A program made the position numbers and the translations under genes. DNA of 36,023 nucleotides from an uncultured Clostridia bacterium (GTDB taxonomy: Bacteria > Bacillota > Clostridia > Tissierellales > Peptoniphilaceae), in the NCBI GenBank assembly GCA_945916025.1, contig CAMEGD010000002.1:1-36023 (forward strand), read 5' to 3'. The notes beneath the pieces are model-generated. The model was given only the letters and a program-made list of their open reading frames with translations. It ran no database searches and was not told where the DNA came from. Positions 7,213 through 30,409 of this stretch are shown in pieces; positions within the stretch are counted from its first letter, which is position 1; the number at the start of each line of letters is the position of its first letter.

Positions 7213-7935
7213 ATGTATTCAAAACTTTTAAAAGAAAAGGGACTAATCAATTACATTAGCGGGTCAGAATTTACCATTAGAACAAAGCTAATAGGTTCAA
7301 AAATCAAAGACGAAGTAGAAGAAATATTACAAATCATGGGAGAAAAGCCAGAAGAAATATATTCAGCAGGCCAAGTCCATGGAGATGTAATAAAGTATTG
7401 TAGTGGATATACTGGAAAGGAATACATCTTTGGAAGGGTATTTCATGATACAGATGGTTTGATAACTGACAAGGAAAATATAGCCTTATTAATAAAATTT
7501 GCAGATTGTACTCCAATTATCCTATACGACCCACTAAAAAAGGTCCAAGCAGCATTACATTCAGGCTGGAGGGGGACTGTCCAAGAAATAGGCAGAAAGG
7601 CAATTGAACTAATGGAAAAAGACTACGGGTGTATGAAAGAAAATATTTATGCCTATCTTGGTCCATCTATAGATATGGAAAATTACGAGGTTGGTGAGGA
7701 AGTCTACAATGCCTTTAAGAACTTTAAAAATAGGGATAACTTTTTTAAGAAAAAAGGAGACAAGTATTTATTAAGTATGATAGATGCCAACTTAGACCTT
7801 TTAGTAGAAAATGGTATAAAGAAAGACAATATAGAAGTTTCTAGAGAATCCACATATAAAAACTTAAGCCTAAATTCAGCTAGAAGAGATAAGGAAAACT
7901 ACAAACTAAACTCAATAATTACAATTATGAAATGA
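7213..7935 (+). CDS. pgeF: Laccase-domain (YfiH/PgeF-like) purine nucleoside phosphorylase family protein
   Basis: QVHGD, FADCTPIILYDP, LHSGWRGT metal-ligand motifs. Confidence 0.85.
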   Translation: MYSKLLKEKGLINYISGSEFTIRTKLIGSKIKDEVEEILQIMGEKPEEIYSAGQVHGDVIKYCSGYTGKEYIFGRVFHDTDGLITDKENIALLIKFADCTPIILYDPLKKVQAALHSGWRGTVQEIGRKAIELMEKDYGCMKENIYAYLGPSIDMENYEVGEEVYNAFKNFKNRDNFFKKKGDKYLLSMIDANLDLLVENGIKKDNIEVSRESTYKNLSLNSARRDKENYKLNSIITIMK

Positions 7936-7944
7936 TAAAAAAAG

Positions 7945-7973
7945 CCTAGGGAATATAAGTCCCTAGGTTGTTT
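7945..7973. terminator. Bidirectional terminator between convergent genes
   Basis: CCTAGGGA-atataag-TCCCTAGG hairpin with A run upstream and T run downstream. Confidence 0.8.
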
Positions 7974-8726
7974 TTAGCTTTGACCAATCATATTTACATT
8001 TCCTTGGCCTTGGTAGTAAATTCTTTCATTAAAGTTACTACCGTCATATTCAAATATCTTAAAGTTTAAAAAGGCCGACCCTTCTTCTAAAAGGCTTATT
8101 TTTAAAATATCATCTTCAAAAAAGACATTTATCTTAATTTTTCCAAGTTGCACCCTTTGATCAAATAGTAGGTAGTCTCCATCCTTTGAGCTGGCTAAAA
8201 GAACGAACTTGTGGTTATCATCATACATAAATACGCCATTGTCATCCTTTTGAGCATCTATATATATGGAAACACTTAAGATATCCTCCGAAAAGCCTTC
8301 AAGACTAAGGTTGTAGTACTCATTTAAACCTTCTAAGTTGTACTTATCACTTAGGGATATTACATTTACAATTGGATTTTCTTCAGTTACTTCAGCTTCT
8401 ATTTCTTCTTCTACCTCTTGAAGATTTGAAACTTCTACAATGTCATTTTGATCATTATAAGTTAAGGTAATGTTTTGGCCCTTCTTTAGGTCCATAAAAT
8501 CTTCATAGGAAGAAGCATCTAACTTTAAGACTTCATTTTCACTTAAAACTTCTACGTACTTAATATCATTTTCTACATAAGTTGAACTTATACTTCCACT
8601 TACAGTTTTCAAATCTTGGACATCCTCAACACTTTCAGTATTTTCATTTGTAGGCTTTGTGTTAGAACTTGGACTTTGACATCCTACAAGAAAGACTAAT
8701 GTTAATATTAATAATAATTTTTTCAA
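7974..8726 (-). CDS. Hypothetical lipoprotein
   Basis: MKKLLLILTLVFLVGC lipobox signal peptide; no recognised domain. Confidence 0.75.
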   Translation of the reverse strand: MKKLLLILTLVFLVGCQSPSSNTKPTNENTESVEDVQDLKTVSGSISSTYVENDIKYVEVLSENEVLKLDASSYEDFMDLKKGQNITLTYNDQNDIVEVSNLQEVEEEIEAEVTEENPIVNVISLSDKYNLEGLNEYYNLSLEGFSEDILSVSIYIDAQKDDNGVFMYDDNHKFVLLASSKDGDYLLFDQRVQLGKIKINVFFEDDILKISLLEEGSAFLNFKIFEYDGSNFNERIYYQGQGNVNMIGQS

Positions 8727-8848
8727 AATTTATTCACCTCATTTGTTTATATTTAATAGTATAATAGAAAATAGTTAAAAAAATATAACAAAATGGCAAC
8801 AAATATTGTATTTTTCTTTCCTTTAACTTATTATATAGACTGGAGGAA

Positions 8849-9712
8849 ATGGTGGAGGAAATTATTAAAAGAATAAGCCTACTAGGCCAGAAGGCTCTGA
8901 TTTATGAAGTGTTACTAAGTCCAAAGCCAGGTTTGGTAGATAGGGACAATTCCGGGTCTCACAAGGACATGGACATATATACTTTTATGGATTCTATCTT
9001 GTCTTTAAGTGATTATTTTTATTTATCCCTTAGAGAGGGTTGCATTTTTAAAGAAAAAGACTATTCCAATTTATTCAAAAAAATAAGACCCCTTGGTATT
9101 GAAGCTGAAAAACAAATGTATAAGTCAACTAAGGGAATAAACACCCACAAGGGGGCAGTGTTTATTTTTGGAATACTATGTAGTTCAATTGGGTCCTTAC
9201 TGGCAAATAAGGAAGTCTTAACTATAGATGGGATTTTAGAAAGGTCTAAGGAAATATCTAAAGACATATTAGATGACTTTTATGGAGTAGAAAACAAAGA
9301 AAATCTAACTTATGGTGAAAGACAGTTTTTAGACTATAAGATTTTAGGTATAAGGGGAGAAGCCTATAGTGGATTTCCCTCTATAAAAGAATCCTATGGT
9401 GCCTTTGTAGATAATATAAACAAGGGATATTCTGAAAAAGTTGCCCTAGGCCAAAGTCTGATTTATTTAATGGAAAACTTAGATGATTCTAATATAATTG
9501 GACGAAAAGGTAGAGATGGACTTGAAATTGTAAAAGATCAGGCTAGGAAAATCAAGGCCCTAGGAGGATATACAAATTCTTCAGGTTTAAAGGGAATTTT
9601 AGAAGCTGACCAAGTGCTTATTTCAGAAAACATTAGCCCAGGTGGATGCGCTGATTTAGCAGGAGCAACCCTATTTTTGTACTGGGTTATTAAGGACATA
9701 AATAATTTGTAA
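8849..9712 (+). CDS. citG: Triphosphoribosyl-dephospho-CoA synthase family (CitG/MdcB-like)
   Basis: LSPKPGLVDRDNSGSHKDMDIYTFMDS, NTHKGAVFIFG, TYGERQF, SPGGCADLAGATLF motifs. Confidence 0.85.
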   Translation: MVEEIIKRISLLGQKALIYEVLLSPKPGLVDRDNSGSHKDMDIYTFMDSILSLSDYFYLSLREGCIFKEKDYSNLFKKIRPLGIEAEKQMYKSTKGINTHKGAVFIFGILCSSIGSLLANKEVLTIDGILERSKEISKDILDDFYGVENKENLTYGERQFLDYKILGIRGEAYSGFPSIKESYGAFVDNINKGYSEKVALGQSLIYLMENLDDSNIIGRKGRDGLEIVKDQARKIKALGGYTNSSGLKGILEADQVLISENISPGGCADLAGATLFLYWVIKDINNL

Positions 9713-9774
9713 TGAATGTATATAAATGATATTATTTGTATATTAATGAGGTTTTAAGAATGAAGAACAGGGTT

Positions 9775-9821
9775 CCCAATACCTAATAAAGATAAAATAA
9801 TTTTAGGTAAGGGATCTTTTT
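9775..9821 (+). terminator. Intrinsic terminator-like hairpin between citG-like gene and LCP gene
   Basis: CCC-aat-ACCTAA...TTAGGT-aa-GGG followed by atcttttt. Confidence 0.6.
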
Positions 9822-9833
9822 AAGGAGAAATGA

Positions 9834-10805
9834 ATGAAAAGTAGATTTTTAGTATCTTTCTTAATTGCTCTTTTAGTTTTTGGAAGTGCCTATGCATGGG
9901 CCTGGTCAAAACTAGAAGGTGGTTTTACTGTTGCACAAGCTATAGAAGAAGAAGCTGGAGTGGAACAAGTTGAAAACATTGAAGAAGGAAATGAAATTGA
10001 ACAAATAGACCTACATGAAATATTTTTTATTTTAGTAGGAGTTGATACAGCAGATGTAAAAAGCATAAGAGTAGGAGAAAATGGCCAAACTGGAATTAGA
10101 TCAGACACCATGATTCTTTGTAAGGTAAACTTTGACGATGGTTCAATAAAGATGATGTCCTTGCCTAGAGACTCTAGAGTTCCAGTAAGGGGAAGCCTAG
10201 ACAAGTTAACCCATGCCCATTCCTATGGCGGTATGAAACTCTTATTACAAACAGTAAGGGATTTTACTGGCCTAGATGTGGATTACTATGTAAGAGTAGA
10301 CTATAGAGCTGTTGAAAAAATAGTAGATGCAATTGGAGGAGTTGAAGTCGACATTCCTAAAAAAATGCACTATGAAGATACAACAGCTGGAAAAGAACTA
10401 ATAGTAAACTTTGAGCCAGGTGTTAAAAAACTTGATGGACAAGATGCTATAAGATTCTTAAGATATAGGTCTTATTCTGATGGAGATATAGATAGGGTTA
10501 AGATGCAACAATACTTCTTAACAGAATTAATAAAACAAACCCTTACACCTAGAAATATTTTAAGACTCCCAAGATTACTTGATGTTTATTCATCATATAT
10601 AGATACAAATATGGATACTTCCATGGTATTTTCTGGAATAAAAATGGCTGGAAACTTAAACAGTGAATTAATTCAAACTGCAACACTGCCAGGAGAATTT
10701 TTAGACTTAGATGTTAGTTATTGGAAAGTATACGAGCCTGGAGCAGATGCCTTAATAGAAGAGTATTTTGGAAACTATTTAATGACAGAAAGTGAAGGAC
10801 AATAA
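9834..10805 (+). CDS. LCP (LytR-CpsA-Psr) family protein
   Basis: N-terminal TM helix; GVDTAD, RSDTMILCKV, MMSLPRDSRV, DYYVRVDYRAVEKIVDAIGGVEVDIP, GQDAIRFLRYR. Confidence 0.93.
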   Translation: MKSRFLVSFLIALLVFGSAYAWAWSKLEGGFTVAQAIEEEAGVEQVENIEEGNEIEQIDLHEIFFILVGVDTADVKSIRVGENGQTGIRSDTMILCKVNFDDGSIKMMSLPRDSRVPVRGSLDKLTHAHSYGGMKLLLQTVRDFTGLDVDYYVRVDYRAVEKIVDAIGGVEVDIPKKMHYEDTTAGKELIVNFEPGVKKLDGQDAIRFLRYRSYSDGDIDRVKMQQYFLTELIKQTLTPRNILRLPRLLDVYSSYIDTNMDTSMVFSGIKMAGNLNSELIQTATLPGEFLDLDVSYWKVYEPGADALIEEYFGNYLMTESEGQ

Positions 10806-11818
10806 TGAGACAATCTAGAAAACAAGAGCACTTAGAAAATTATCTACTTTCTTCTCACAAAAGTTCAAATTTATTTGATGAAATTTTTATTGGACATAAG
10901 TCTATTACAGACAAAAAATTTGAAGATGTAGATACTTCTATAGAATTTTTAGGCAAGAGAATTTCCTTTCCATTTATGATTAATGCAGTAACTGGTGGAA
11001 ATGACTATGCCAATGAAATAAACAAAGACCTAGCTAGAATTGCCAATGAACTAAACATTCCTATGGCTGTAGGTTCTCAAAAAGTAGCCCTTGAAGAAAA
11101 AGAGACTAGGGAGTCCTTTGAAATAGTAAGAGAAATGAATCCAGATGGACTTATAATATCTAACCTTGGAGCCTTATGTACCTTAGAAGAAGCTAAAGAA
11201 GCAGTAGAAATGCTAAATTCAAATGCAATTCAGCTTCACCTAAATCTTGCTCAGGAATTAGTTATGCCTGAAGGGGATAGGGACTTTACAGAAATGAAAG
11301 AAAGTATAGAAAGTGTAGTAAATGGACTTGATATACCAGTTATCCTTAAAGAAGTTGGAACTGGGATATCCAAGGATGTAGGAAATGACCTTTATAACTT
11401 AGGGGTTAGGTATATAGATTGTGCTGGCAAAGGTGGTTCAAACTTTGTAGAAATTGAAGACCTTAGAGATCCTGGACTAGATGCCAGTGAACTATACGAT
11501 TGGGGGATTCCATCTGCCTTAAGTCTACTTGAAGTTTTGAGTCTAAAAAAAGACGACTTATTTGTAATATCAAGTGGTGGAATTAGAACTTCTACTGAAA
11601 TTGCTAAATCTTTAGTAGTAGGTGCAAACTTGTGTGCAGGTTCAGGAGAAATAATAAACTACCTGATTAGAGGAGGCTATAATCTAGCCTTAGATTATGT
11701 AAAAAACTTAAGGCATAAATTCCAGATAATTATGATGTTATTAGACGTTAGTAAGGTAGAAGACCTTAAAAAAGTAGATTACAAAGTAGTTGGAAGATTA
11801 AGAGAGCTTATAGGTTAA
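10805..11818 (+). CDS. fni: Type 2 isopentenyl-diphosphate delta-isomerase (FMN-dependent)
   Basis: RKQEHLENYL, FPFMINAVTGG, GSQKVAL, QLHLNLAQELVMPEGDRDF, VGTGISKDV, SSGGIRTSTEIAKSLVVGA. Confidence 0.93.
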   Translation: MRQSRKQEHLENYLLSSHKSSNLFDEIFIGHKSITDKKFEDVDTSIEFLGKRISFPFMINAVTGGNDYANEINKDLARIANELNIPMAVGSQKVALEEKETRESFEIVREMNPDGLIISNLGALCTLEEAKEAVEMLNSNAIQLHLNLAQELVMPEGDRDFTEMKESIESVVNGLDIPVILKEVGTGISKDVGNDLYNLGVRYIDCAGKGGSNFVEIEDLRDPGLDASELYDWGIPSALSLLEVLSLKKDDLFVISSGGIRTSTEIAKSLVVGANLCAGSGEIINYLIRGGYNLALDYVKNLRHKFQIIMMLLDVSKVEDLKKVDYKVVGRLRELIG

Positions 11819-11885
11819 ATATTTATAACAAGGTTGTAACTTAAAGTAGGTCTAGGCCTTGTTATATTAATATATAGAAGGATTT

Positions 11886-12017
11886 GTGGGTTTTGGTGGC
11901 AGTATGTATATAGGTTTTTTAGTAGCTGTAATAGTATTTTTAATTACAAAGAATTTTATATATAGCGGATCTATTTTTCTTGCCATCTTTTTTTATAAAA
12001 ACCACATAGATAAGTAG
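11886..12017 (+). CDS. Putative 43-aa small membrane protein (absent from ORF track)
   Basis: GTG start after agaagg, or internal ATG at 11904; translates to VGFGGSMYIGFLVAVIVFLITKNFIYSGSIFLAIFFYKNHIDK*. Confidence 0.4.
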   Translation: MGFGGSMYIGFLVAVIVFLITKNFIYSGSIFLAIFFYKNHIDK

Positions 12018-12024
12018 GTAAAAT

Positions 12025-12645
12025 ATGGGCTACTATAAGCTAAATTCAGAAAAAGACAAAAAATTCTTAGAGATAATAGAAGAGGACAAGACCTTTTATG
12101 GAGGTCAACAAAAATGGCATGGAAGGAAAAGCAAGGTTATAAATGGATGTGGACCTGTATCTTCAGCAAATATCCTAGCCTATCTTTCTATCAAAGACCC
12201 TAAATACAAAAACCTTTATAGTGGGGATTTTACTAGGGAAGACTTTAAAAACTTTCAACTTGAAGTTTATGACTTTATAAGTCCAGGGCTTCTAGGTCTA
12301 ATTAGCATTAATAAGTTTGTAAATAAGACTTTAGAATACGCCCATAAAAAAGGGGTTGACTTAAAATACCAGAAGTTAATTTCTCGAAATAAAAACTTTA
12401 ATTATCTTTCATCTTATAATTTTATTATTAATGCTCTATTAAAGGACCTTCCAGTAGCAGCTTTTAATCTAGACCCTAGAAAAAACCTTGATTTTTCTTG
12501 GCACTGGCTTGTAATTACTGGAATATATGAAGAGAATAATAAAATCAGACTAATAGTATCTTCTTGGGGAAAGAGATTTGATATAGACTTTTTTGACTAT
12601 TATAAGTCTATGAAGTTTGGTGGAGGGTTAGTTTATTTTTATTAA
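12025..12645 (+). CDS. C39-like / papain-like cysteine peptidase family protein
   Basis: INGCGPVSSANILAYL (Cys region), WHWLVITGIY (His region), VSSWGKRFDID. Confidence 0.65.
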   Translation: MGYYKLNSEKDKKFLEIIEEDKTFYGGQQKWHGRKSKVINGCGPVSSANILAYLSIKDPKYKNLYSGDFTREDFKNFQLEVYDFISPGLLGLISINKFVNKTLEYAHKKGVDLKYQKLISRNKNFNYLSSYNFIINALLKDLPVAAFNLDPRKNLDFSWHWLVITGIYEENNKIRLIVSSWGKRFDIDFFDYYKSMKFGGGLVYFY

Positions 12646-12717
12646 TTTTACAATTTGCAAACTATAAAGCTAAAAAATTATGTATAATATATATGTTATT
12701 TTTCTTTGGAGGAATTT

Positions 12718-13614
12718 ATGATAAAAATTTTTACAGATTCATCTTCAGACATACCAAAGGGAGTTCTTGATAAATACAAGATAGACGTTCTTCCAATTGG
12801 TATTATGCAAGATGAAAAAGAGTATACTATTGGACAAGACATAGACTCTAATTTACTTATAGAAAAAATGAAGGAAGGACAAGATTTTAAAACATCCCAA
12901 GTAACAAGGGCCCTTATTTATTTTAATATAGAAAAATATATTAAGGAAGGTTATCAAGTTATTTATCTACCCCTGTCGTCAGGTATTTCAGGTACCTATA
13001 ACAACGCCTTAGGGGCTAAGGAAGACTTGCTAAAAGTATATCCAAATGCCCAAATAGAAATTGTAGATTCCAAGAGTGCAACTTACGGTCATGGAATTGT
13101 TACAATAAAGGCTGCTATTTTAGCTGAAAAAGGTTATGGCATTAAGGAAATTATTACTAAATTAAATGATATTATAGAAAACCAAATTCACCTATTTACA
13201 GTTAATGACTTAGAATACCTTTTTAGAGGGGGAAGACTTTCAAAATCTTCAAAAATTATTGGTGGCCTATTAAATATATTACCAATCTTATATATTGAAA
13301 GAAAAGAAGGAAAAATTATTTCAATAGACAAGGCTAGAGGAAAAAAAGCCTTCTTAAACAAGGTAAAACAACAGGCTAATAAACTATCAAAGACTGGAAC
13401 ATTTAATAGTAATCAAAGTGTGGTAATCGCCCATGCTGATTGGGAAGAAATGGCTGAAGATACTAAGGAATTTTTTATAAATGACTTGGGAGTAAAAAGA
13501 GAAAATGTTCATATTAGAGAATTAGGCTGTATAATAACAGCACATACAGGACCGGGAACATTGACAATATTCTTTAGTAGTGACCCTGGAGAACTTAATA
13601 CTTTTGATATATAA
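12718..13614 (+). CDS. DegV family fatty-acid-binding protein
   Basis: IFTDSSSDIPKGVLDKYKIDVLPIGI, LPLSSGISGTYNNA, VDSKSATYGHG, YLFRGGRLS; ATG at 12718 after ggaggaattt. Confidence 0.95.
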   Translation: MIKIFTDSSSDIPKGVLDKYKIDVLPIGIMQDEKEYTIGQDIDSNLLIEKMKEGQDFKTSQVTRALIYFNIEKYIKEGYQVIYLPLSSGISGTYNNALGAKEDLLKVYPNAQIEIVDSKSATYGHGIVTIKAAILAEKGYGIKEIITKLNDIIENQIHLFTVNDLEYLFRGGRLSKSSKIIGGLLNILPILYIERKEGKIISIDKARGKKAFLNKVKQQANKLSKTGTFNSNQSVVIAHADWEEMAEDTKEFFINDLGVKRENVHIRELGCIITAHTGPGTLTIFFSSDPGELNTFDI

Positions 13615-13671
13615 GATTCTATTATCCTACAACATATAGTTTGGGAGGTAGACAGGAAAACTTATACAAAA

Positions 13672-13714
13672 AACTTAGGACCTTATGAAAGTACATAAGC
13701 TTCTAAGTTTTTTA
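13672..13714 (+). terminator. Intrinsic terminator downstream of degV-like gene
   Basis: AACTTAG-gac-CTTATG-aaagta-CATAAG-ctt-CTAAGTT followed by T run. Confidence 0.7.
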
Positions 13715-13901
13715 TTGTCTAAATAACAAGGCTTTTGGGCATCTGTCCAATGTGTAAGAATACTGAAAGTATGGAATTCTAATCATGGGAATATAAGATT
13801 AATAAAATAATAAAAGAAAAAAGCAAAAAATTACATGTATATATAAATGACTATTTGATATTATTCAATTATGAAAACGTTTTTAATTTAGAGGTGAGAA
13901 G

Positions 13902-15437
13902 GTGAATATTCTATATATAGATATTGAAGATAAGACAGTTAAAGAATTTATCTTGAAACTTGCAGATTCAAGAATAAATTTTATTAATTATGGTTCAAGT
14001 GATATGGAAATAAATGATTTTTCGGTAGTTATATATTCTAACTTTATGAGAAATGAGAGTAGATTAAAAAAATTAAGAGGTTTAAATCGAAACTCAAAAT
14101 TTATTTACATATTAGATCATTATAAAAATGATACTATTCAAAAAGCTATAAACGCACAGCTAGTAGATTATCTATATTTTAAAAATGAAAATTATGTAGA
14201 GAAAGTAGTAGAAATACTGAATACAAAAAATAACAACAAAATACTAGATGCTAAAGTTGAGAACAAAAGTTTAAATATGGCTAAATCAATGGTCACTTCT
14301 TTTTATATTTATAATTTAATATATGGTGACATGAAGAACCTTGATATGCTAATAGACTTAGTAGAAAAATACAACTTAGAAATAAATCCGAATCTATCCA
14401 TAGTATTGATGATTGACAATTTTTGGGAAGAAGTAAGGTTTTTAGACAACAAAAATAGATATGAAATAAAAAAAGAGTATCTTGATTTTGTTAATTATTT
14501 TATAGATAAAAATAATATCCAAGCCATAGCAAGCACTCTATTTGGGACAGATAAAATTACAATTCTATTAAACATAGATAAAGACAATCAGAAAGATTCC
14601 ATAAAGTATAGTACTAAATTAGCTATTAAGTTAAAAGAATATATTAATTTAAAAGCTAAGCATACTGTAACCATTGGTGTTGGTTCTATATTCCAAAATC
14701 CAAAATATTTATGGAAGTCATATGAAGAAGCTTTTAAATCTTTAGATTATTCTTTTTATCTTGGCTCAGACAAGGTAATTCATTTTGAAGAAACTAAAGA
14801 TCTAACAATTTATAACGATGCTAATAAAAATAAACTGCCACAGTCATCTGCCATGGGGATAATGATAACTAATGGACTTTATAAAGAAAGAAAGTATACA
14901 GATAGGGAAGCATCGATTATTGTTACTGGATTTTCAGCAGTTGCTATAACATTTATGATAGTAGTAGCAGATAATCTTGGATTTACTTCTATGTGGAATA
15001 CATTCTTTGCATCAGCTTTAGTAGTTACATTCTTGACAACAGCTATAACTGCAAGATTAAGGCCTTTGTCTAAAATGAATGATACTTATTATAACAATAT
15101 GCCAGCTAATATAGATGAAACGCGCCAAGGAAATGTAATTAAAAGTGCTATTGATGAAGATTTTAAAGTATGCTATGAAGTACCACCACTACACATCAAT
15201 ATATTAAATTATCTAAAAGATGCTTTTGAATTAGTTTTGGAATATCTTCCCAACTTAATGTCAATAGGCTTGGCTGGTTTGCTCCTAGCAGAATATACCC
15301 CTTTATTTGATTATTTGGGATATATTTTCTATCCTATAACTTTAGCTCTTAGAATTCCTGAACCATTACTTGCAGCTAAAGCTACAATATTGGGATTAGC
15401 TGAGATGTATTTACCGGTATTATTGCTGAAGTTATAG
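13902..15437 (+). pseudogene. Chimeric ORF: YesN/AraC-type regulator N-terminal part (to ~14800) joined in frame to YjiH-family membrane protein C-terminal part (from ~14830)
   Basis: HTVTIGVGSIFQNPKYLWKSYEEAFKSLDYSFYLGSDKVIHFEE is typical of YesN/AraC-like regulators just before their HTH, but continues into SSAMGIMITNGLYKERKYTDREASIIVTGFSAVAITFMIVVADNLGF (YjiH-like); no HTH is present. Confidence 0.65.
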
Positions 15438-15622
15438 GAATACATTTAGCTGATGAATTTATAGGAGAAGACGACAAAATTGACATTGTAAAAATAGGAC
15501 CTGTTGCAAGACTAGGTTATTTAGACTTTACTGTAGTAGATAACAGTTTTACTATGGATACACCAAAAATTGACGAAAAGTTTCAAGAATTAGTAGACGT
15601 TGGATTAGAGGGTAAAGCTTAA
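15416..15622 (+). pseudogene. C-terminal fragment of a flavin-reductase-like protein, out of frame with the upstream ORF
   Basis: Frame shared with the TAA at 15620: GIIAEVIGIHLADEFIGEDDKIDIVKIGPVARLGYLDFTVVDNSFTMDTPKIDEKFQELVDVGLEGKA*. Confidence 0.5.
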
Positions 15623-15641
15623 TTCTATTAATTATAAAAAT

Positions 15642-15675
15642 AAGGACCTTATGGGAAACCATAAAGTCCTTTTTA
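15642..15675. terminator. Bidirectional terminator
   Basis: AAGGAC-c-TTATGG-gaaa-CCATAA-a-GTCCTT followed by T run, between convergent units. Confidence 0.75.
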
Positions 15676-15686
15676 CTTGGAGTTAA

Positions 15687-17129
15687 CTATCTAAAAGTCT
15701 TTTTTATTGAACCTAAAACGCCTCTTGCTATGTCTCTTCCTACTTGTCTACTAAAGGAATAGACGGCAGAACTAATCATCTTTCCAATCATATTGTCTCT
15801 AGGTGATTTAGTCTTTTCTTCTATCTTTTTAAGTTCTTCTGCCTTTACTATACTAGCTTCTTCATCAAACCTCTTGGCAAGTAATTCATAAGCAGATTCT
15901 CTATCTAGGGAATCCATATATTTTTCCCTTAAATAAGAAGAATTTACTATTTCTTTAGATTCATCTAAAGTTAAAGGCACAAAGGAAGACTTAGGTGGAT
16001 ATATAAGCCCCTTAACTACTGGAGTAGGGGAACCTGATTCGTCTAGGGTAGAAAAAATTGCTTCCCCAGTTCTTAGGTTTTGTATTTCACCTTCTAAGTT
16101 GAAGGAATCATTTTGTCTTAGACCTTGGGATATTTCCTTGATTGTTCTAATTTCCCTTGGAGAAAAGGCTCTTAGTTGGTGAATAATTTTAGTTCCTAAT
16201 TGGGAAGATACTTCGTCAGGAATATCCATTGGATTTTGGGTTACAAAGAAAACTCCAACTCCCTTAGACCTAATTAACTTAACAACTTGTAAAACTTTTT
16301 CTAGCAAGACCCTTGAACCGTTATTAAACAATAAGTGGGCTTCATCAAAGAAAAATACTAGTTTTGGAAACTCCCTGTTACCAACTTCTTCTAATTCTTC
16401 ATATAACTCAGACAAAAGCCAAAGTAAGAAAATAGAATACATTGTAGGGTTATTTACTAGCTTTTTACTAGATAGGATATTAATTATTCCCTTGCTGTCT
16501 TTTTCTCTTATTAAGTCAGTAATTGAAAGAGAAGGTTCATTAAAGAAAAAGTCTCCCCCTTGGTCTTCTAAAAGTAAGACTTTTCTTAATATAGCTGAAA
16601 TGCTTTGGCTAGTAACATTTCCATATTCTTTAGAAACTTCTTTTTTATTCTCATCAATATATCTTAATATAGATTTAAGGTCTTTTAAATCTAATAGGAG
16701 CATTCCTTCTGAATCGGCGATTCTAAAAGCTATATTTATGACTCCTTCTTGGGTGTCGTTTAGTCCAAGAATCTGTGACAATAGTAGTGGTCCTAATTCT
16801 GAAAGACTTACCCTAAGTGGAAGTCCCTCTTTTCCATAGACATCCCAAAGTTCAACTGGAAAGCTGGAAAAGTCCATACTTACTTCCAGCTCTTCAACTC
16901 TATCTTCTAAGTTATCCATAACCCCAGCTTTAGAAAGGTTACTAAGGTCTCCTTTTACGTCTGCTAAAACTACAGGAATACCTAATTCTGAAAAGGCTTC
17001 TGCTAGAACCTTTAAGGTTACAGTTTTCCCAGTACCTGTGGCACCACATATTAAGCCATGTTGATTTAATTTTTCAGTAAGTATACTTAAGTCTTCCTTG
17101 TCCTTGTTTTTTCCAAATACTATTTTCAT
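15687..17129 (-). CDS. HerA-like / DUF853 family ATPase
   Basis: GLICGATGTGKTVTLKVLAEAFSELGIPVVLADVKGDLSNLSKAG; FFFDEAHLLF; VFFVTQNPMDIPDEVSSQLGTKIIHQLRAF. Confidence 0.9.
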   Translation of the reverse strand: MKIVFGKNKDKEDLSILTEKLNQHGLICGATGTGKTVTLKVLAEAFSELGIPVVLADVKGDLSNLSKAGVMDNLEDRVEELEVSMDFSSFPVELWDVYGKEGLPLRVSLSELGPLLLSQILGLNDTQEGVINIAFRIADSEGMLLLDLKDLKSILRYIDENKKEVSKEYGNVTSQSISAILRKVLLLEDQGGDFFFNEPSLSITDLIREKDSKGIINILSSKKLVNNPTMYSIFLLWLLSELYEELEEVGNREFPKLVFFFDEAHLLFNNGSRVLLEKVLQVVKLIRSKGVGVFFVTQNPMDIPDEVSSQLGTKIIHQLRAFSPREIRTIKEISQGLRQNDSFNLEGEIQNLRTGEAIFSTLDESGSPTPVVKGLIYPPKSSFVPLTLDESKEIVNSSYLREKYMDSLDRESAYELLAKRFDEEASIVKAEELKKIEEKTKSPRDNMIGKMISSAVYSFSRQVGRDIARGVLGSIKKTFR

Positions 17130-17276
17130 AAAAGTTCCCTTCTTTTCTAATATTAGGTTTATATTTTTGTTATCTATATTCTATCAAAAAAACTAGTAAG
17201 GGCAAATATTAATTTATTAATAGCCTTTCATCTTAATAATATAGCTAAGAAAATTTAAATATGTTATTATTTATAT

Positions 17277-18173
17277 ATGAAAAATTACAATAATGATTTA
17301 GATAAATTAATTTTAGAAGCTGAAAAACATAGGCATAATAAGGACTATCTTTTGTCTATAGACCTATACAAAGAGGCTTTATTTTTTCTTGAAAATGGAG
17401 AAAAAATAGAAGTCTTATTTAATCTTGCAGATGTTTATGGGGAAGTGAAAAACTTTGTAGGTGCAAACTTAGTCTACAATGAGATAATTGAAATAGACCC
17501 ACTAAGTAGCGGCGCCTGGTACGGGATAGCCTTTACCAACGAAATTTTAAATAATGACATATATATTTCTTTAGATGCTTACGAAAAGGCTATTGAACTA
17601 GACCCAGCCTACAAGGAAGCCTATTATTATGCAGCTACAATTTATGGTGATTTGGAAAATTATCCTAAGTCCATTTCTTATTTGGAAAAAGTAATTGAAC
17701 TAGACCCTGAAGACTATGTTGCCTATAATGACCTTGGTTCTATTTATGAAAGTCAGAAGGATTACAAGAAAGCTAAGAGTTATTTAGAAAAGTCAATTTC
17801 TATAAATGATCGTTATTATCTTTCTTATTTCAATTTAGGTGTAGTTCATAAGCAGATGGGTGACCATGAAAAAGCTATAGAGTATTATGAAAAAGCTAAG
17901 AATCTTTCAGATTCTAGGTTTATTTACCTCAACATGAGTGCGATTTATATAGAAGATAATAAATTAGATGAGGCCATAAAGATTCTTACTGAGGGAATTA
18001 AGGAAAATGGACACTATATTTTATATTATAATAGAGCTTGTTCTTATAGGAAATTAGGCAAAATTGGTCTGGCTCTAAAAGATTTTGAAGAAGCCTATAA
18101 TCAAGATGACAAAGTATCAGACTGGGCAAAAAACGACCCAGACTTAAAAGATATTATTAAGGAGTATTTATGA
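17277..18173 (+). CDS. Tetratricopeptide repeat protein
   Basis: Successive TPR motifs (AYEKAIELDPAYKEAYYYAATIYGDLENY..., SYLEKVIELDPEDYVAYNDLGSIYESQKDY...). Confidence 0.9.
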   Translation: MKNYNNDLDKLILEAEKHRHNKDYLLSIDLYKEALFFLENGEKIEVLFNLADVYGEVKNFVGANLVYNEIIEIDPLSSGAWYGIAFTNEILNNDIYISLDAYEKAIELDPAYKEAYYYAATIYGDLENYPKSISYLEKVIELDPEDYVAYNDLGSIYESQKDYKKAKSYLEKSISINDRYYLSYFNLGVVHKQMGDHEKAIEYYEKAKNLSDSRFIYLNMSAIYIEDNKLDEAIKILTEGIKENGHYILYYNRACSYRKLGKIGLALKDFEEAYNQDDKVSDWAKNDPDLKDIIKEYL

Positions 18174-18919
18174 TAATTTTAAAGACAGATGAACAAATAG
18201 AAAAAATGCATAAGGCAGGAAAGCTTTTAGCATCAGTCCACAGAGAACTTAGAAACATTATTAAACCAGGTGTAACTACCATGGAACTAGACCAGTTTGT
18301 AGAAAACTATATAACTGAAAGGGGAGCTTATCCAGAACAAAAGGGATACAACGGCTTTCCTTATTCAATATGTGCCTCTATCAACGATGAGATTTGTCAT
18401 GGTTTTCCAAGAAATGAAAAGCTAGTTGAAGGTGACATCTTAACGGTAGATATGGTGGTAAATTTAGATGGTTATCTTGCTGATTCTGCTTGGTCTTATG
18501 GAGTTGGAGAAATTTCTAAGGAAAAACAGGATTTACTTGATGTTACAAAAGAGTGCCTTTACAAGGGGATAGAACAAGTAAAGGTTGGAAATAGGCTAGG
18601 TGATATTGGCCACGCCATCCAATCCTATGCAGAGTCATTAGGATATTCAGTTGTGAGAGATTTCATTGGTCATGGAATAGGAAAAGATATGCACGAGGAA
18701 CCCCAAGTATTACACTATGGAAGACCTGGTAGAGGTTTAAGACTTATGGAAGGCATGGTCTTTACAATTGAACCAATGATAAATATTGGAAAGTACAACA
18801 TAAAAATGGACGACAATAAGTGGACAGCTAGAACTATAGACGGGAAAATGTCCGCTCAATACGAACACACACTAGCCTTGACTAAGAATGGAGTAATTAT
18901 TTTAACTGCTCAAGACTAA
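18170..18919 (+). CDS. map: Methionine aminopeptidase type I
   Basis: MHKAGKLLASVHREL, NDEICHGFPRN, DFIGHGIGKDMHEEPQV, FTIEPMIN. Confidence 0.96.
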   Translation: MIILKTDEQIEKMHKAGKLLASVHRELRNIIKPGVTTMELDQFVENYITERGAYPEQKGYNGFPYSICASINDEICHGFPRNEKLVEGDILTVDMVVNLDGYLADSAWSYGVGEISKEKQDLLDVTKECLYKGIEQVKVGNRLGDIGHAIQSYAESLGYSVVRDFIGHGIGKDMHEEPQVLHYGRPGRGLRLMEGMVFTIEPMINIGKYNIKMDDNKWTARTIDGKMSAQYEHTLALTKNGVIILTAQD

Positions 18920-18927
18920 GGAGGAAA

Positions 18928-20298
18928 ATGAAAAGACAAGTAAATTTACTATCTGGGGATATAAAAAGTTCCCTCATAAAAATGAGTATACCACTAATGG
19001 GTATATCCTTTGTCCAAATAACTTATAATTTAGTTGATATGTTTTGGCTAGGGCGTTTTAGTGATGAGGCAGTAGCAGCTGTAGGAACTGCAGGCCTTGT
19101 AAATTATATAGGTAACTCTTTAGCCATGGTGGGTAGAGTGGGGGCAGCTACTTGGATTGCCCAATCTTACGGCAGGGGAAATTATAAGGACACAAAGGCC
19201 TATATTGAAAGTGGAATAAAGGTAAATATTGCAATTTCTATTTTTTATACTATATTTGCTTTTTTAATGATGGAAACTTTTTTAGGCTTTTTTACTTTAA
19301 CAGAAAACGTAAAAAACTATGCTGTTGAATACTTACTTATCCAAATTTCAGGGATGGTGATAGTCTTTCTAAACCCTATGTTTGCAGTAACTTACAATAG
19401 TATTGGAAATAGCATGACCCCTTTTAAACTAAGCTTAATAGGTCTAACGATGAACTTCATCTTAGATCCTATTTTTATATTTGTTTTTAAAATGGGAGTT
19501 ACTGGTGTAGCCTTAGCAACAATAGGAGCACAACTTTGTGTCTTATTAGCCTATTTATATATTACAAAAAAATCCAGTAACTTTTTAGGAGATGTAAGGA
19601 TAATATCCAAACCAGAAGTTAAAAAGATTATAGATATTTTATTTATTGGATGGCCAGCCTCTGTCCAAAGTACAGCCATGGCCCTAATAGCAGTAGTATT
19701 AAATACCTTCATTTCAAAATTTGGTCCAATGCCAATGGCTGTATATTCTTTAGGAATTCAGATTGAATCTATATGCTGGATGACAGCAGATGGATTTTCT
19801 GTAGCTGTGTCTTCATTTATGGGCCAAAACTTAGGGGCACAAAACTATGAAAGACTCAAAAAAGGGTATAAAGAAAGTGTAAAAATTTTTATAACCATTG
19901 GCCTTATAGCTATGGTAATTCTCACCTTGTTTGGAGAAAACCTAATTGCCTTATTTATTCCTGAGGACCCATTAGCTCACAAGGAGGGGGGAAAACTTTT
20001 GAGGATAATGGGACTTTCTGAAATACTTATGGCTTTAGAAATTGGCATTAACGGAGCTCTAAATGGAGTTGGATTAACAAAATTTCCAGCTATTAATGGG
20101 CTTTTTGGAAACTTATTAAGAATTCCAATTTCCTTATTTTTAATTCCATATTTGGGATTAAGTGGAATTTGGATAGCCATAAGCATTACAATGGCTCTAA
20201 AGGGCCTATCAGCAATAATTGCCTATGGTTTTATTAGAAAGAAGACAGACGGATTTAGACAACTTTCGTATAGGAGGAACTTAGATGAGACAACTTGA
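18928..20298 (+). CDS. MATE family efflux transporter
   Basis: [38 protein letters not shown]; multiple TM segments. Confidence 0.94.
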
Positions 20299-20884
20299 TA
20301 AACCTACAATAGGTGAACAAATAGCAATAATTTCCACAAACCATGGAATAATCAAAGTAAGATTATTTGAAGACGAGGCTAAAAAAGCAGTGGAAAACTT
20401 TAAAGGTCATAGTTCTAATGGATACTATGACAATACTACCTTCCATAGAGTAATTAAGGACTTTATGATTCAAGGTGGAGATCCTGAAGGAACAGGTTTA
20501 GGTGGAGCTAGTATTTGGGGAAAACCATTTGAAGATGAGTTTTCAATTAACTTAAGACATTTTTACGGAGCCTTATCAATGGCCAATTCAGGACCAAATA
20601 CAAATGGATCCCAGTTTTTCATAGTTCAAGGATCTAAAATTGGTCCAGATATAATTGGACAAATGAAAGATTTAGGAAAAGACAATGGATTCTCAGATTC
20701 AGTAGTAGAGGCTTATGAAGAACTAGGTGGAGCCTACTGGTTAGATGGAAAGCACACAGTATTTGGCCAAGTCTTTGAAGGAATGGAAGTAGTTGAAGAA
20801 ATAGTAAATGTAGAAACAGACTTTAGAGACAAACCAAAGGATCCTATTATTATCCAATCAATTATTATTGATAATTTTAGATAA
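20285..20884 (+). CDS. Peptidyl-prolyl cis-trans isomerase, cyclophilin type
   Basis: [50 protein letters not shown] aggagg. Confidence 0.95.
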
Positions 20885-20969
20885 TATGTAAAAATTTCAA
20901 AAAAGGTTTTCATCTTTTCATTATGTGGTATATAAGAACTAATACATTAACTTGAAAGGAGAGTATTTT

Positions 20970-22364
20970 ATGAACAAGGATATTCTAAAAGGTAAATGGA
21001 GTCAAATAACCGGTACCATCCAAAAAAAATGGGGACAAATAACAGATGACGAATTAACCAAGATTAAAGGGGATACAACTCGTTTTAAAGGTATTCTTCA
21101 AGAAAAATATGGATATACAAAGCAAGAAGCTGAAAATATGTATAACGAAGTTTTTGACATGGGTAACAGTGTAAAAGATTCAATTGTCGACAAAAAAGAT
21201 GACCTTGTAGATAAAGGACAGTCCTTTAAAGACAAGGTTGATGCTAAAAAAAGAGAATTAATTGAAAATAAGGGATCATTTAGGGATAGAATTCCTGGAA
21301 ATGAATACCTTACAGACAAGCAGATAATTGAAAAAAGAAATGAAGAAATTAGAACTTATAGAACCAAAGAACGAATCGAAGATAGGTATTTTCCTAGAAA
21401 TGGACTTGAAAAAGAAGATTCTTTATTAGAATGTGAAGATATCCAAGGACTTGCAAAAAACAGGGAAAAAAATGAAAAACTAATAGGTGAAAATATGAAA
21501 AGAAATGAATATTTAGAAGACAGAGACCTTGATAGAGATGAAAGAATACTTGAAGAGGATAAAGTATTAGACGAAGAATTAAAAGATGTTGATAACTTAA
21601 TAGGTAAAAGAGTATTAGTAGACAAGTACTTTGAAGAGGATGCTACAGATGATTACATTGAATTAGGAAATAAGCCGAGAGAAGCTGCACCTGATGAAGA
21701 AGTAGTTACAGGAAAGAAAATATTAATAAATAGACATTTTGAAGATGACCCTACTGATGATTATGTTGAAGTAGGACAAGGAAGCCTTAAGGACAAAAGA
21801 ACAGTTGATGATAGAGAGATTTTTGAAGATACTCTAGTTAACAATGAGGCTGAATATTTTGTAGAAGAAGACCATCTTGAAAGACCTGAAAGATACTTTG
21901 AAGAAGATGACTCAATCTTAATTGGTGATAGAAGGGACAATGAAACTTTCACAGTAACCCATAAAGAAACTCTTGTAGACCATGACTTAGATGATGATCT
22001 TGAATATGACGAAGAAGACATGTTATATGGAAAAGCGGAATATGAAAGAGACTTATTAAGTGGAAAAGACGTAGCCTATGAAACTGAGTTTGATGGTTTA
22101 AATAAGGGAGACGAAGACTTGTTCGAAGAAGAAAACAACTTAACAAATGAAAATCTTTATGAAGTTGAAGTGTTAGATGAAGAAGATTTGCTTTTAGAAG
22201 AAGATGTAGCTAAAAGAGATATTAAAAAAGAAGATTTAAAGACAAAAGAAGAATTAGAAGAATCTCTTTTAAGGGACGAAAAAGATCAAAGGATTGATGA
22301 AGATTTTTATAGAGAAGTAGGAGAAGCTACTGCCTATATCAAAGAAGAAAATCAAATTAAGTAA
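20970..22364 (+). CDS. CsbD-like N-terminal domain followed by ~400-aa acidic low-complexity region
   Basis: MNKDILKGKWSQITGTIQKKWGQITDDELTKIKGDTTRFKGILQEKYGYTKQEAE is CsbD-like; remainder is D/E/K-rich with a 22-aa imperfect duplication. ATG at 20970 after gaaaggag. Confidence 0.75.
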   Translation: MNKDILKGKWSQITGTIQKKWGQITDDELTKIKGDTTRFKGILQEKYGYTKQEAENMYNEVFDMGNSVKDSIVDKKDDLVDKGQSFKDKVDAKKRELIENKGSFRDRIPGNEYLTDKQIIEKRNEEIRTYRTKERIEDRYFPRNGLEKEDSLLECEDIQGLAKNREKNEKLIGENMKRNEYLEDRDLDRDERILEEDKVLDEELKDVDNLIGKRVLVDKYFEEDATDDYIELGNKPREAAPDEEVVTGKKILINRHFEDDPTDDYVEVGQGSLKDKRTVDDREIFEDTLVNNEAEYFVEEDHLERPERYFEEDDSILIGDRRDNETFTVTHKETLVDHDLDDDLEYDEEDMLYGKAEYERDLLSGKDVAYETEFDGLNKGDEDLFEEENNLTNENLYEVEVLDEEDLLLEEDVAKRDIKKEDLKTKEELEESLLRDEKDQRIDEDFYREVGEATAYIKEENQIK

Positions 22365-24440: not shown

Positions 24441-24992
24441 ATGAAAAAGAAGTTGTTAGCATTATTATTAGGATTTAGTTTATTATTGGTTGCATGTAAC
24501 AATCAAAGTGACACAGATGCAAATGCAGAGGCAGAAAAAACTGTAAGTGAAAATGAAGTAGTACATGTAAAAATCGGTACATCACCAACACCGCATGGGG
24601 AGATTGTAGAAGCTTTAAAGGATAAGTTTTTGGAAGAAAATATTGAAGTTGAAGTTATTAATTTTGATGATTATGTACAACCAAACTTAGCCTTATCTGA
24701 TGGAGACCTAGACTTAAACTATTTCCAACATCTTCCATATTTAGAAAGTTTTTCTGCAGATCACAACTTAGACTTAGTAGGACTTGGACAAATCCATGTA
24801 GAACCTTTAGCCTTGTACTCAGAAAAATATGAATCAGTTGAAGACATTGAAGATGGAGCAGAGATTTTAATACCAAATGACCCTTCTAATGGGTCTCGTG
24901 TCATAATTATGACAACGGCAAATAGTAACGATAGAATCAGGCTTTCCAGCCCTCTACAAAAAAATAAAAATATGTATTGGTGTGCTTTTTAG
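24441..24992 (+). pseudogene. metQ: Truncated metQ (substrate-binding lipoprotein), metQ-like to ~24898 then element-derived tail
   Basis: LLLVACN lipobox, KIGTSPTPHGEIVEALKDKF, NYFQHLPYLESF, ILIPNDPSNGSR; homology stops there and the ORF ends in a non-MetQ tail (VIIMTTANSNDRIRLSSPLQKNKNMYWCAF). Confidence 0.85.
24899..24914. repeat. 16-bp perfect palindrome at metQ/element junction
   Basis: TGTCATAATTATGACA equals its own reverse complement. Confidence 0.85.
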
Positions 24993-27490: not shown

Positions 27491-28215
27491 GTAGTATCAT
27501 GCAATATAATAATAAAGAATTTGGAGAACTCACTGTTATTGAAAAAGACGGTGAGTTTTTCTTTATAGGAAAAGAAGTAGCAGAGAAGCTAGGATATTCA
27601 AATACAAGAGATGCTTTAAGTCGTCATGTTGATGAATCAGATAAGGGCGTCGGGAAACACGACACCCTTGGAGGCAAACAATCTTTTATCGTTATAAATG
27701 AGTCTGGACTTTACTCCCTAATTCTATCTTCCAAACTTCCTTCAGCTTTAAGATTTAAACATTGGGTGACAAAAGAGGTTCTTCCAAGTATTAGAAAAAA
27801 TGGAGGATATATCTCAAATCAAGAAAACTTGTCAAACGAGGAAATTCTAGCAAAAGCAATGTTGGTTGCAAACAATGTAATAAAGGAAAAAGCGGACAGG
27901 ATAAAAGAGCTTGAGCCTAAAGCCAATTACTACGATCAACTAGTAGATAAGAATCTACTTACTAACTTTAGGGATACTGCTAAACAACTAAATATACCAC
28001 AAAAGGCATTTATTGATTTTCTACTAGAGAATGATTTTCTATATCGAGATAAACATCAGAAGCTACTACCTTATTCTAGAAAAAATAACGGCTACTTTGA
28101 AGTCAAGGAATGGGTTAGTTTAGATGGTCATTTGGTTGGTATTCAAACAATGGTGACTCCTAAAGGAAGAAACTACTTCCTAGTCTTGTTAGGAGGTGGT
28201 TTAAGTCGTGATTGA
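27487..28215 (+). CDS. Phage-type antirepressor (Bro-N plus KilAC-like C-terminal domain)
   Basis: GELTVIEKDGEFFFIGKEVAEKLGYSNTRDALSRHVDESDKGV; SALRFKHWVTKEVLPSIRKNGGYI; C-terminal DTAKQLNIPQKAFIDFLLENDFLYRD. Confidence 0.88.
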   Translation: MSSIMQYNNKEFGELTVIEKDGEFFFIGKEVAEKLGYSNTRDALSRHVDESDKGVGKHDTLGGKQSFIVINESGLYSLILSSKLPSALRFKHWVTKEVLPSIRKNGGYISNQENLSNEEILAKAMLVANNVIKEKADRIKELEPKANYYDQLVDKNLLTNFRDTAKQLNIPQKAFIDFLLENDFLYRDKHQKLLPYSRKNNGYFEVKEWVSLDGHLVGIQTMVTPKGRNYFLVLLGGGLSRD

Positions 28216-30409
28216 TAAAATATTTAAGGATATTAAAGGACTAATCAAAATAGATAGTCCAAAAGACTTTCTCATTAATTGGATGCCTTATATCCTTATC
28301 TTCTACATTGGGAATATTTTTTCCAAACATGTTGCTTCCTATGTTGGAGGGGATGTTATAGATAGGATATTAATAGCTATCCTCGAAGTTAATACTATGA
28401 GTCTTCTTCCAATTTTTAAGACTAATGACTTAATAGTAGGGTTAGTCTTGTCAGGCCTTGTAAAGTTAATTGTTTATTCTAAAGGGAAAAACGCTAAGAA
28501 GTTTAGGCAAGGTGAAGAATATGGTTCAGCAAGATGGGGAACTAAAAAAGATATTGAACCTTACATTGATGAAAAGTTTGAGAACAATGTTCTTCTGACA
28601 CAAACTGAAAGACTTACCATGGACTCAAGACCGAGCAATCCCAAATATGCAAGAAATAAAAATGTTATGGTCATTGGTGGTTCAGGCTCAGGTAAAACGA
28701 GATTCTATGTAAAACCTAACCTCATGCAAATGCACTCATCCTATATTGTCTATGTAGGAACTCAAACTATTCAACCAGGAATTGAAGATATGCTCAGAGA
28801 AAAAAACGATGGCGGGAAGCCTGTAAGATGGGCTAGCTTACAGAGATCAGGATCTAACAGCAGAAGATTTGAAGGTCCTACGATGTTCTATCCAATATTT
28901 TTTAATAAAGATGACAAATCTTTTCATTCTACTGGAGAATCTTTACCGTTGAATCTAGATAGAAATACTGTGATAGCTCCAGAAGGAACTATAGCGGTGT
29001 TTCCACTTGGTCGTAATAATGATGAAAGAAATTGGCAGTTATCACAGAAAACGTTCAATGAAAGGTTATCTAGAGGGTTCGTCAAGTTTGGAAAATGGAA
29101 TGAGGCTAAAAACTCAAGAAGCATCAGTTATTTGTCTACTGGCGTTATAAATAGAATAGCTAGTGGTGAGTTAAAAATCTTGGGCTATGAACAGGATGGC
29201 GCAGCAATTATTGAAAATGTAAGCACTATTAGACCTGTATCAACATGGAATAAGCCAACTCATAGTGCTAGTGAATATGGTTCCAGTCTCTTAAATCATA
29301 TCATGCCAGATAGAAAATTTCCTTTTCCTAAGTCATTATACGCTGTTGCTGACACATTGAAATTTTTTGTTTCCAATAAAAAAGATGCATTAATCCTTGA
29401 TTTTTTTGCGGGCTCTGGGACAACGGCTCATGCAGTTAATTTATTGAACAAAGAAGATGGTGGCAAGAGACAATCAATTATGGTAACAAATAATGAAGTT
29501 TCAGTTGATGAATCTAAATCACTAAAGAAAAAAGGATTTAATCCAGGTGATATAGAGTGGGAGGATTTAGGCATAGCTCATCATATAACTTGGCCAAGAA
29601 TTAAATGTTCAATTCTTGGCATTGATACTGTCGGCTCACCCTTAACTGATACCTATAAAATAACAAGAAAAAAACAAGTTCTGGTTCCACGTAAAATTAA
29701 GAAGATTGATTATGTAACCCCAGAGACACTAGATACTGTCACTAAGCGAAAAAACTTTGTGTCAAATCTTAATTCTAAATACTCAGACTTGGCTCAAAGT
29801 CTTGTGAAAAAAGATGAACCTTTTATTGTTTCTGACGAACATTCAACAACTATTATATTTGATATCGAATATTTAGAAGAATGGTTGAATGAGATAGAGG
29901 GAAAAGACCATATTCAAAACTTTTTAATCATTACAAATAACAATAAAGAATTTAATAATATTAAGGATAAAGTTGCTGATTTAATGGGCGAGAATCAAAG
30001 TATTATAGAAGAAGAATTACCAATGTCAAAAGGTTTCGATACTAATGCGATTTTCTTTAAGTTGGGGTTTCTTGACAAAAATAGCGTTGCAATCGGAAAA
30101 CAACTTAGTGAGTTATTACCATTACTATGGATGAAAGCTGGTTCAGTAGGGGAATGTCCTTCTATAGGAGAGAATGAAAATGTAGATGCTTTAATTTATC
30201 CTAAAAATAAATTCGGAATTCTGATTAAAGAAAATAGATTTGCGGATTTCAAAAATGAGTTAGATGAGTATCCTGAAATCAATACAGTATTTATAGTTAC
30301 TGATTCAGACGAAGGCTATGTTGAAATGTCTTCATTATTGGAGGTTAAACAAACATTTCAACTTTACAAAGACTATTTAGATAATTTTAGGATAAATATT
30401 AGGAGGTAA
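28208..30409 (+). pseudogene. Fusion ORF: VirD4/TraG coupling protein N-terminus (~28208-28750) plus type III Mod DNA methyltransferase C-terminal half (~28751-30409)
   Basis: N-part: GSARWGTKKDIEPYID..., VMVIGGSGSGKTRFYVKPNLMQMHSSYIV (Walker A). C-part: RWASLQRSGSNSRRFEGPTMFYPIFF, KPTHSASEYGSSLLNHIM, LILDFFAGSGTTAHAVNLLNKEDGGKRQSIMVTNNE. VirD4 Walker B and Mod DPPY are absent. Confidence 0.8.

Follow-up and report, generated by a model that had tools for sequence, protein, structure and literature searches.

A 511-codon open reading frame (ORF) on the plus strand of the window (the whole 36-kb contig analysed here, from a fragmented assembly of 130 contigs that is 64.7% complete) raises the question of whether it encodes a new kind of fused sensor or results from the decay of known genes. 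The ORF exists as claimed in an earlier note on this DNA, at positions 13902-15437 and with a GTG start; it joins part of an AraC/YesN-type regulator to part of a YjiH-like membrane protein, and is followed by the C-terminal end of a flavin reductase (Table 1). According to our comparisons, the most likely explanation is ordinary gene decay of recent date and not a new kind of fused sensor. We give a probability of roughly 0.7 to the reading that the locus is the remnant of one AraC-YjiH-reductase operon, recently collapsed by two internal deletions.

Table 1. Coordinates of the remnant, its two junctions and the flanking features in the window.
Feature	Coordinates	Strand	Evidence
degV (left flank, intact)	12706..13614	+	Pfam DegV 6.6e-72; full-length syntenic counterparts in G001 and G002
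Terminator-like hairpin in the interval between degV and the remnant	13668..13713	+	20-nt arms, 90% complementary; RNA fold z = -5.1
AraC/YesN-type regulator, N-terminal ~313 codons, without linker and HTH	13902..14843	+	homology
Junction J1, in frame, clear microhomology absent	14841..14846	+	sequence comparison to three intact operons
YjiH-like membrane protein, residues ~179-373 of 437	14844..15428	+	homology
Junction J2, frame-breaking, <=8 nt of possible microhomology	15417..15426	+	alignment with intact operons
Flavin reductase, C-terminal 67 codons and stop, without start codon	15419..15622	+	homology
Terminator-like hairpin between the remnant and herA, T tracts on both sides	15642..15671	.	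RNA fold z = -3.0
herA-like ATPase (right flank, intact)	15687..17129	-	Pfam HerA_C 1.8e-178; adjoins degV in G001 and G002

Each of the three parts resembles one particular intact gene at a level well above chance. The regulator part shows 40% identity to residues 5-307 of the 527 of the AraC regulator from P. catoniae (E = 1.8e-53), in a match that spans 312 amino acids and includes the N-terminal sensor homology, and 32% identity to the regulator from genome G006 (E = 2.8e-40). This homology bears out the YesN-type start proposed earlier. The receiver-like beginning proposed along with it survives only as a predicted likeness in alpha/beta fold, because a Pfam search of the N-terminal ~110 residues did not retrieve the receiver family. 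Further along, a GGDEF_2-like domain at ORF residues 196-282 scores just under the Pfam cut-off. Intact relatives' regulators carry a C-terminal helix-turn-helix (HTH_18), but Pfam found no AraC-type helix-turn-helix in the 511-aa ORF; the regulator is indeed cut before any such motif, as had been noted, and lacks residues ~308-527 in P. catoniae numbering. NCBIfam searches with the ORF and with the reductase tail did not match anything.

The YjiH piece, of ~192 codons, is 73% identical to YjiH from P. catoniae (E = 3.1e-89) and also matches that of G006 (E = 2e-80). It is an incomplete Gate domain, in which the first ~178 and the last ~64 residues of a ~437-aa protein are gone (1-178 and ~374-437 in P. 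catoniae numbering). The tail, in turn, shows 76% identity to residues 158-223 of the 224 of the P. catoniae flavin reductase (E = 4.5e-28), with a further match at 71% identity (E = 1.1e-23), confirming the earlier assignment of a reductase C-terminus leading to a terminator. Its frame is open from 15404, true homology begins at 15419, and the stop codon lies at 15620-15622. Residues 1-157 are absent; the split-barrel domain PF01613 occupies residues 21-171 in the intact protein, and a Pfam search with the ~67 residues that remain did not detect a flavin reductase-like domain.

Alignment with intact operons located both of the deletion-type junctions that the earlier note had deduced, and narrowed their positions from near 14800-14850 and near 15416 to the few bases given in Table 1. 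At J1, the regulator is traceable to ...LPQ and YjiH from SSAMG, in frame; at J2, YjiH is traceable to ...YLPVLL and the reductase frame from II-AEV, out of frame, which leaves the reductase tail without a start. Up to eight bases, TATTATTG (15418-15425), could be common to both sides of J2, and the inferred parental overlap at the joins is about 0-8 bases, both figures being estimates from the genes of relatives and not from this organism's parental sequences. None of the words of at least 13 bases across either join had a second copy in a 429-kb sample.

In the window, the regulator starts after degV, and the reductase ends with its stop and a terminator before herA, which fits a single inserted unit. 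The two hairpins that flank the remnant have AGGACCTTATG in common (13677-13687 and 15643-15653), either by chance or as a trace of insertion, and a search of 13400-15900 for RNA families did not find any.

Comparison with close relatives, as had been proposed, revealed both the intact genes and an empty site. This kind of flavin reductase occurs in 10 of 130 genomes of the same family, including the one studied here; a search for it across the phylum, in 399 genomes and with a strict cut-off, yielded none. In G006, G137 (P. catoniae) and G139 (Peptoniphilus sp. S30M) the genes are arranged as flavin reductase-AraC-YjiH on one strand, with gaps of ~10-30 bases, whereas in six other Peptoniphilus genomes and in Clostridium symbiosum the AraC gene is divergently oriented, with the flavin reductase after YjiH. 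The YjiH of the window is closer to the reductase-first arrangement (73% identity) than to the divergent one (~50%), and an extra N-terminal regulator domain is common to the window and the reductase-first operons. Likewise, phylogenies built from the YjiH and AraC parts group the window with the operons of G006, G137 and G139 (99-100% SH-aLRT). The three genes had been described as partial and unrelated; they are partial, but all three pieces match genes that adjoin each other in relatives, indicating one operon and not three unrelated genes.

In contrast to the window, degV and herA lie next to each other in convergent orientation, ~60-100 bp apart, in the two genomes of the same genus (G001 and G002), where the neighbouring genes are full length and syntenic with those of the window. 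The operon is thus either a lineage-specific insertion or was lost from both sisters, and its putative horizontal gain between degV and herA is the simpler reading.

Under the collapsed-operon explanation, an ancestral operon with the order AraC regulator-YjiH-flavin reductase would have occupied the site between degV and herA. If its genes were spaced like those of relatives, the deletion at J1 would have taken out about 1.2 kb, comprising the AraC linker and helix-turn-helix and the start of YjiH (~178 residues). The deletion at J2, of about 0.7 kb, would have taken out the end of YjiH (~64 residues) and the beginning of the flavin reductase (~157 residues). J2 could plausibly have arisen by slipped mispairing at a short repeat, while J1 looks like a homology-free join. 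The ancestral order is deduced, because the closest intact operons place the reductase first, and an intact one-strand AraC-YjiH-flavin reductase order was present in no genome searched; either such an order existed in the lineage or there were more rearrangements than the two visible deletions.

The second of these options can be framed as a variant of decay that overlaps with our preferred explanation, in which a reductase-AraC-YjiH operon was duplicated in tandem, or otherwise rearranged, and then suffered several deletions. Its appeal is that the nearest relatives are reductase-first and that the window order is a cyclic permutation of their arrangement. We nevertheless consider it quite unlikely: three or more events would be needed, the terminator downstream of the reductase agrees with this gene having originally come last, and no duplicate operon pieces are left in the window.

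The earlier note also suggested that the in-frame join might yield a working membrane-anchored sensor devoid of DNA-binding activity, that is, a functional new protein in which the YjiH piece anchors the sensor half of AraC. Several features speak for this: the ORF is free of internal stops and frameshifts, as are all the retained pieces, J1 falls just past the point where the sensor domain is predicted to end (its structured part extends to about residue 300), and the YjiH half shows purifying constraint, its differences from P. catoniae YjiH at codon positions 1, 2 and 3 being 45, 31 and 107. Of 66 positions that are otherwise invariant, this half departs at 5; the corresponding figure for the YjiH of G006 is 6 of 67. 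However, the out-of-frame, start-less reductase tail is conserved like the rest, with deviations at 0 of 29 invariant positions, which implies that conservation reflects how recent the event is and not selection on the fusion. Moreover, a join would be in frame by chance one time in three, and the YjiH piece lacks both of its ends. The fused version was found in 0 of the 130 family genomes, the entire fusion, used as a query against genome contigs, did not retrieve any relative, and a plasmid search produced matches to the YjiH part alone. A structure model of the fusion was confident up to residue ~300, across the sensor half, and not beyond; a control model of an intact YjiH was equally poor in that region, so that the model is neutral on the membrane part. 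We thus regard a functional fusion as very improbable, and slightly more improbable still that it is translated into a membrane-tethered AraC sensor half that does not bind DNA and titrates its ligand or a partner. Most likely, the remnant is devoid of predicted DNA binding, transporter or reductase function, although it may still be transcribed.

A different concern is that the joins might be artefacts of library preparation or assembly, with the operon being intact in the organism. Arguments for this are that the assembly is fragmentary and incomplete, that the gene pieces retain the constrained look expected if intact copies were present, and that the same contig contains two more truncations, at a VirD4/Mod join around 28750 and in metQ. 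Against this, the core genes at 7213-20884 that have syntenic partners in G001 and G002 are full length, and the other 393 kb of the assembly examined (from 20 other contigs, set against about 0.8 Mb of G002) contained a single clearly truncated gene among ~75-100 testable orthologues. Besides, the missing AraC, YjiH and reductase pieces were found neither in the window nor on any other contig of the incomplete assembly, and the overlap at the joins is too small for a k-mer assembler error. An MDA-type chimera was judged unlikely for a sample whose type is unstated: among the MDA chimeras of one published set, only 11 of 475 were direct-orientation joins of less than 10 kb (PMC1855051), and the chimeras from the MDA reaction are mostly inverted (PMC1855051). 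Overall, an artefact seems unlikely, and the deletions are probably genuine. The identities of the parts, the intact operon of relatives, the empty site of the sisters and the residual coding constraint are observations; from these we infer that the deletions are recent, that they took place in the organism and not merely in the sequence data, and that the remnant is without function.

The truncated orthologue detected in that survey is a PfpI/DJ-1-like gene (locus L185, positions 9686-10012 of contig C10 of G000) that lacks the first ~89 residues, possibly through an in-frame internal deletion. In the window itself, the N-terminal part of a VirD4/TcpA coupling protein is joined in frame to the C-terminal part of a type III DNA methyltransferase (Mod) at 28208-30409; VirD4/TcpA homology to many relatives stops near 28745, and after the mosaic, within a Tn1549-like mobile element, comes a Res gene (30413-33211). 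The metQ-like lipoprotein gene (24441-24992), which lies at the edge of that mobile element, breaks off at position 116 of its 236-position family profile. A CsbD-domain protein of 470 aa is encoded at 20952-22364, the place at which the sister genomes encode proteins of 142 and 170 aa, and its alignment to these is limited to the first ~70 residues.

These results call for caution, because an apparent mosaic of three genes corresponds here to one collapsed operon that is recognisable only through intact relatives and sisters with an empty site. Should such joins recur in this assembly, the annotation of fusion proteins would need a prior check of the reads. The patchy and rearranged AraC-YjiH-flavin reductase unit itself appears to be little described: our literature search did not retrieve any paper describing the three genes together.

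Among known systems, the operon of P. catoniae (NZ_LR588416.1; locus L093) contains the same three genes on one strand as the pieces in the window, and its regulator likewise has an N-terminal domain of ~110 aa ahead of the sensor part; it differs in that every gene is intact and in that the reductase is first, whereas it is last in the window. In the divergent arrangement (P. lacydonensis, P. phoceensis, C. symbiosum and others) YjiH lies immediately 5' of the reductase, as in the window, but the regulator is on the opposite strand, YjiH is ~50% identical and the genes are intact; the divergent Peptoniphilus regulators, unlike that of the window, also lack the N-terminal domain. We found no feature that distinguishes the window locus from the remnants of operons with internal deletions; like these and like internal-deletion pseudogenes, it combines truncated neighbours, in-frame and out-of-frame joins, and a site that is empty in sister genomes.
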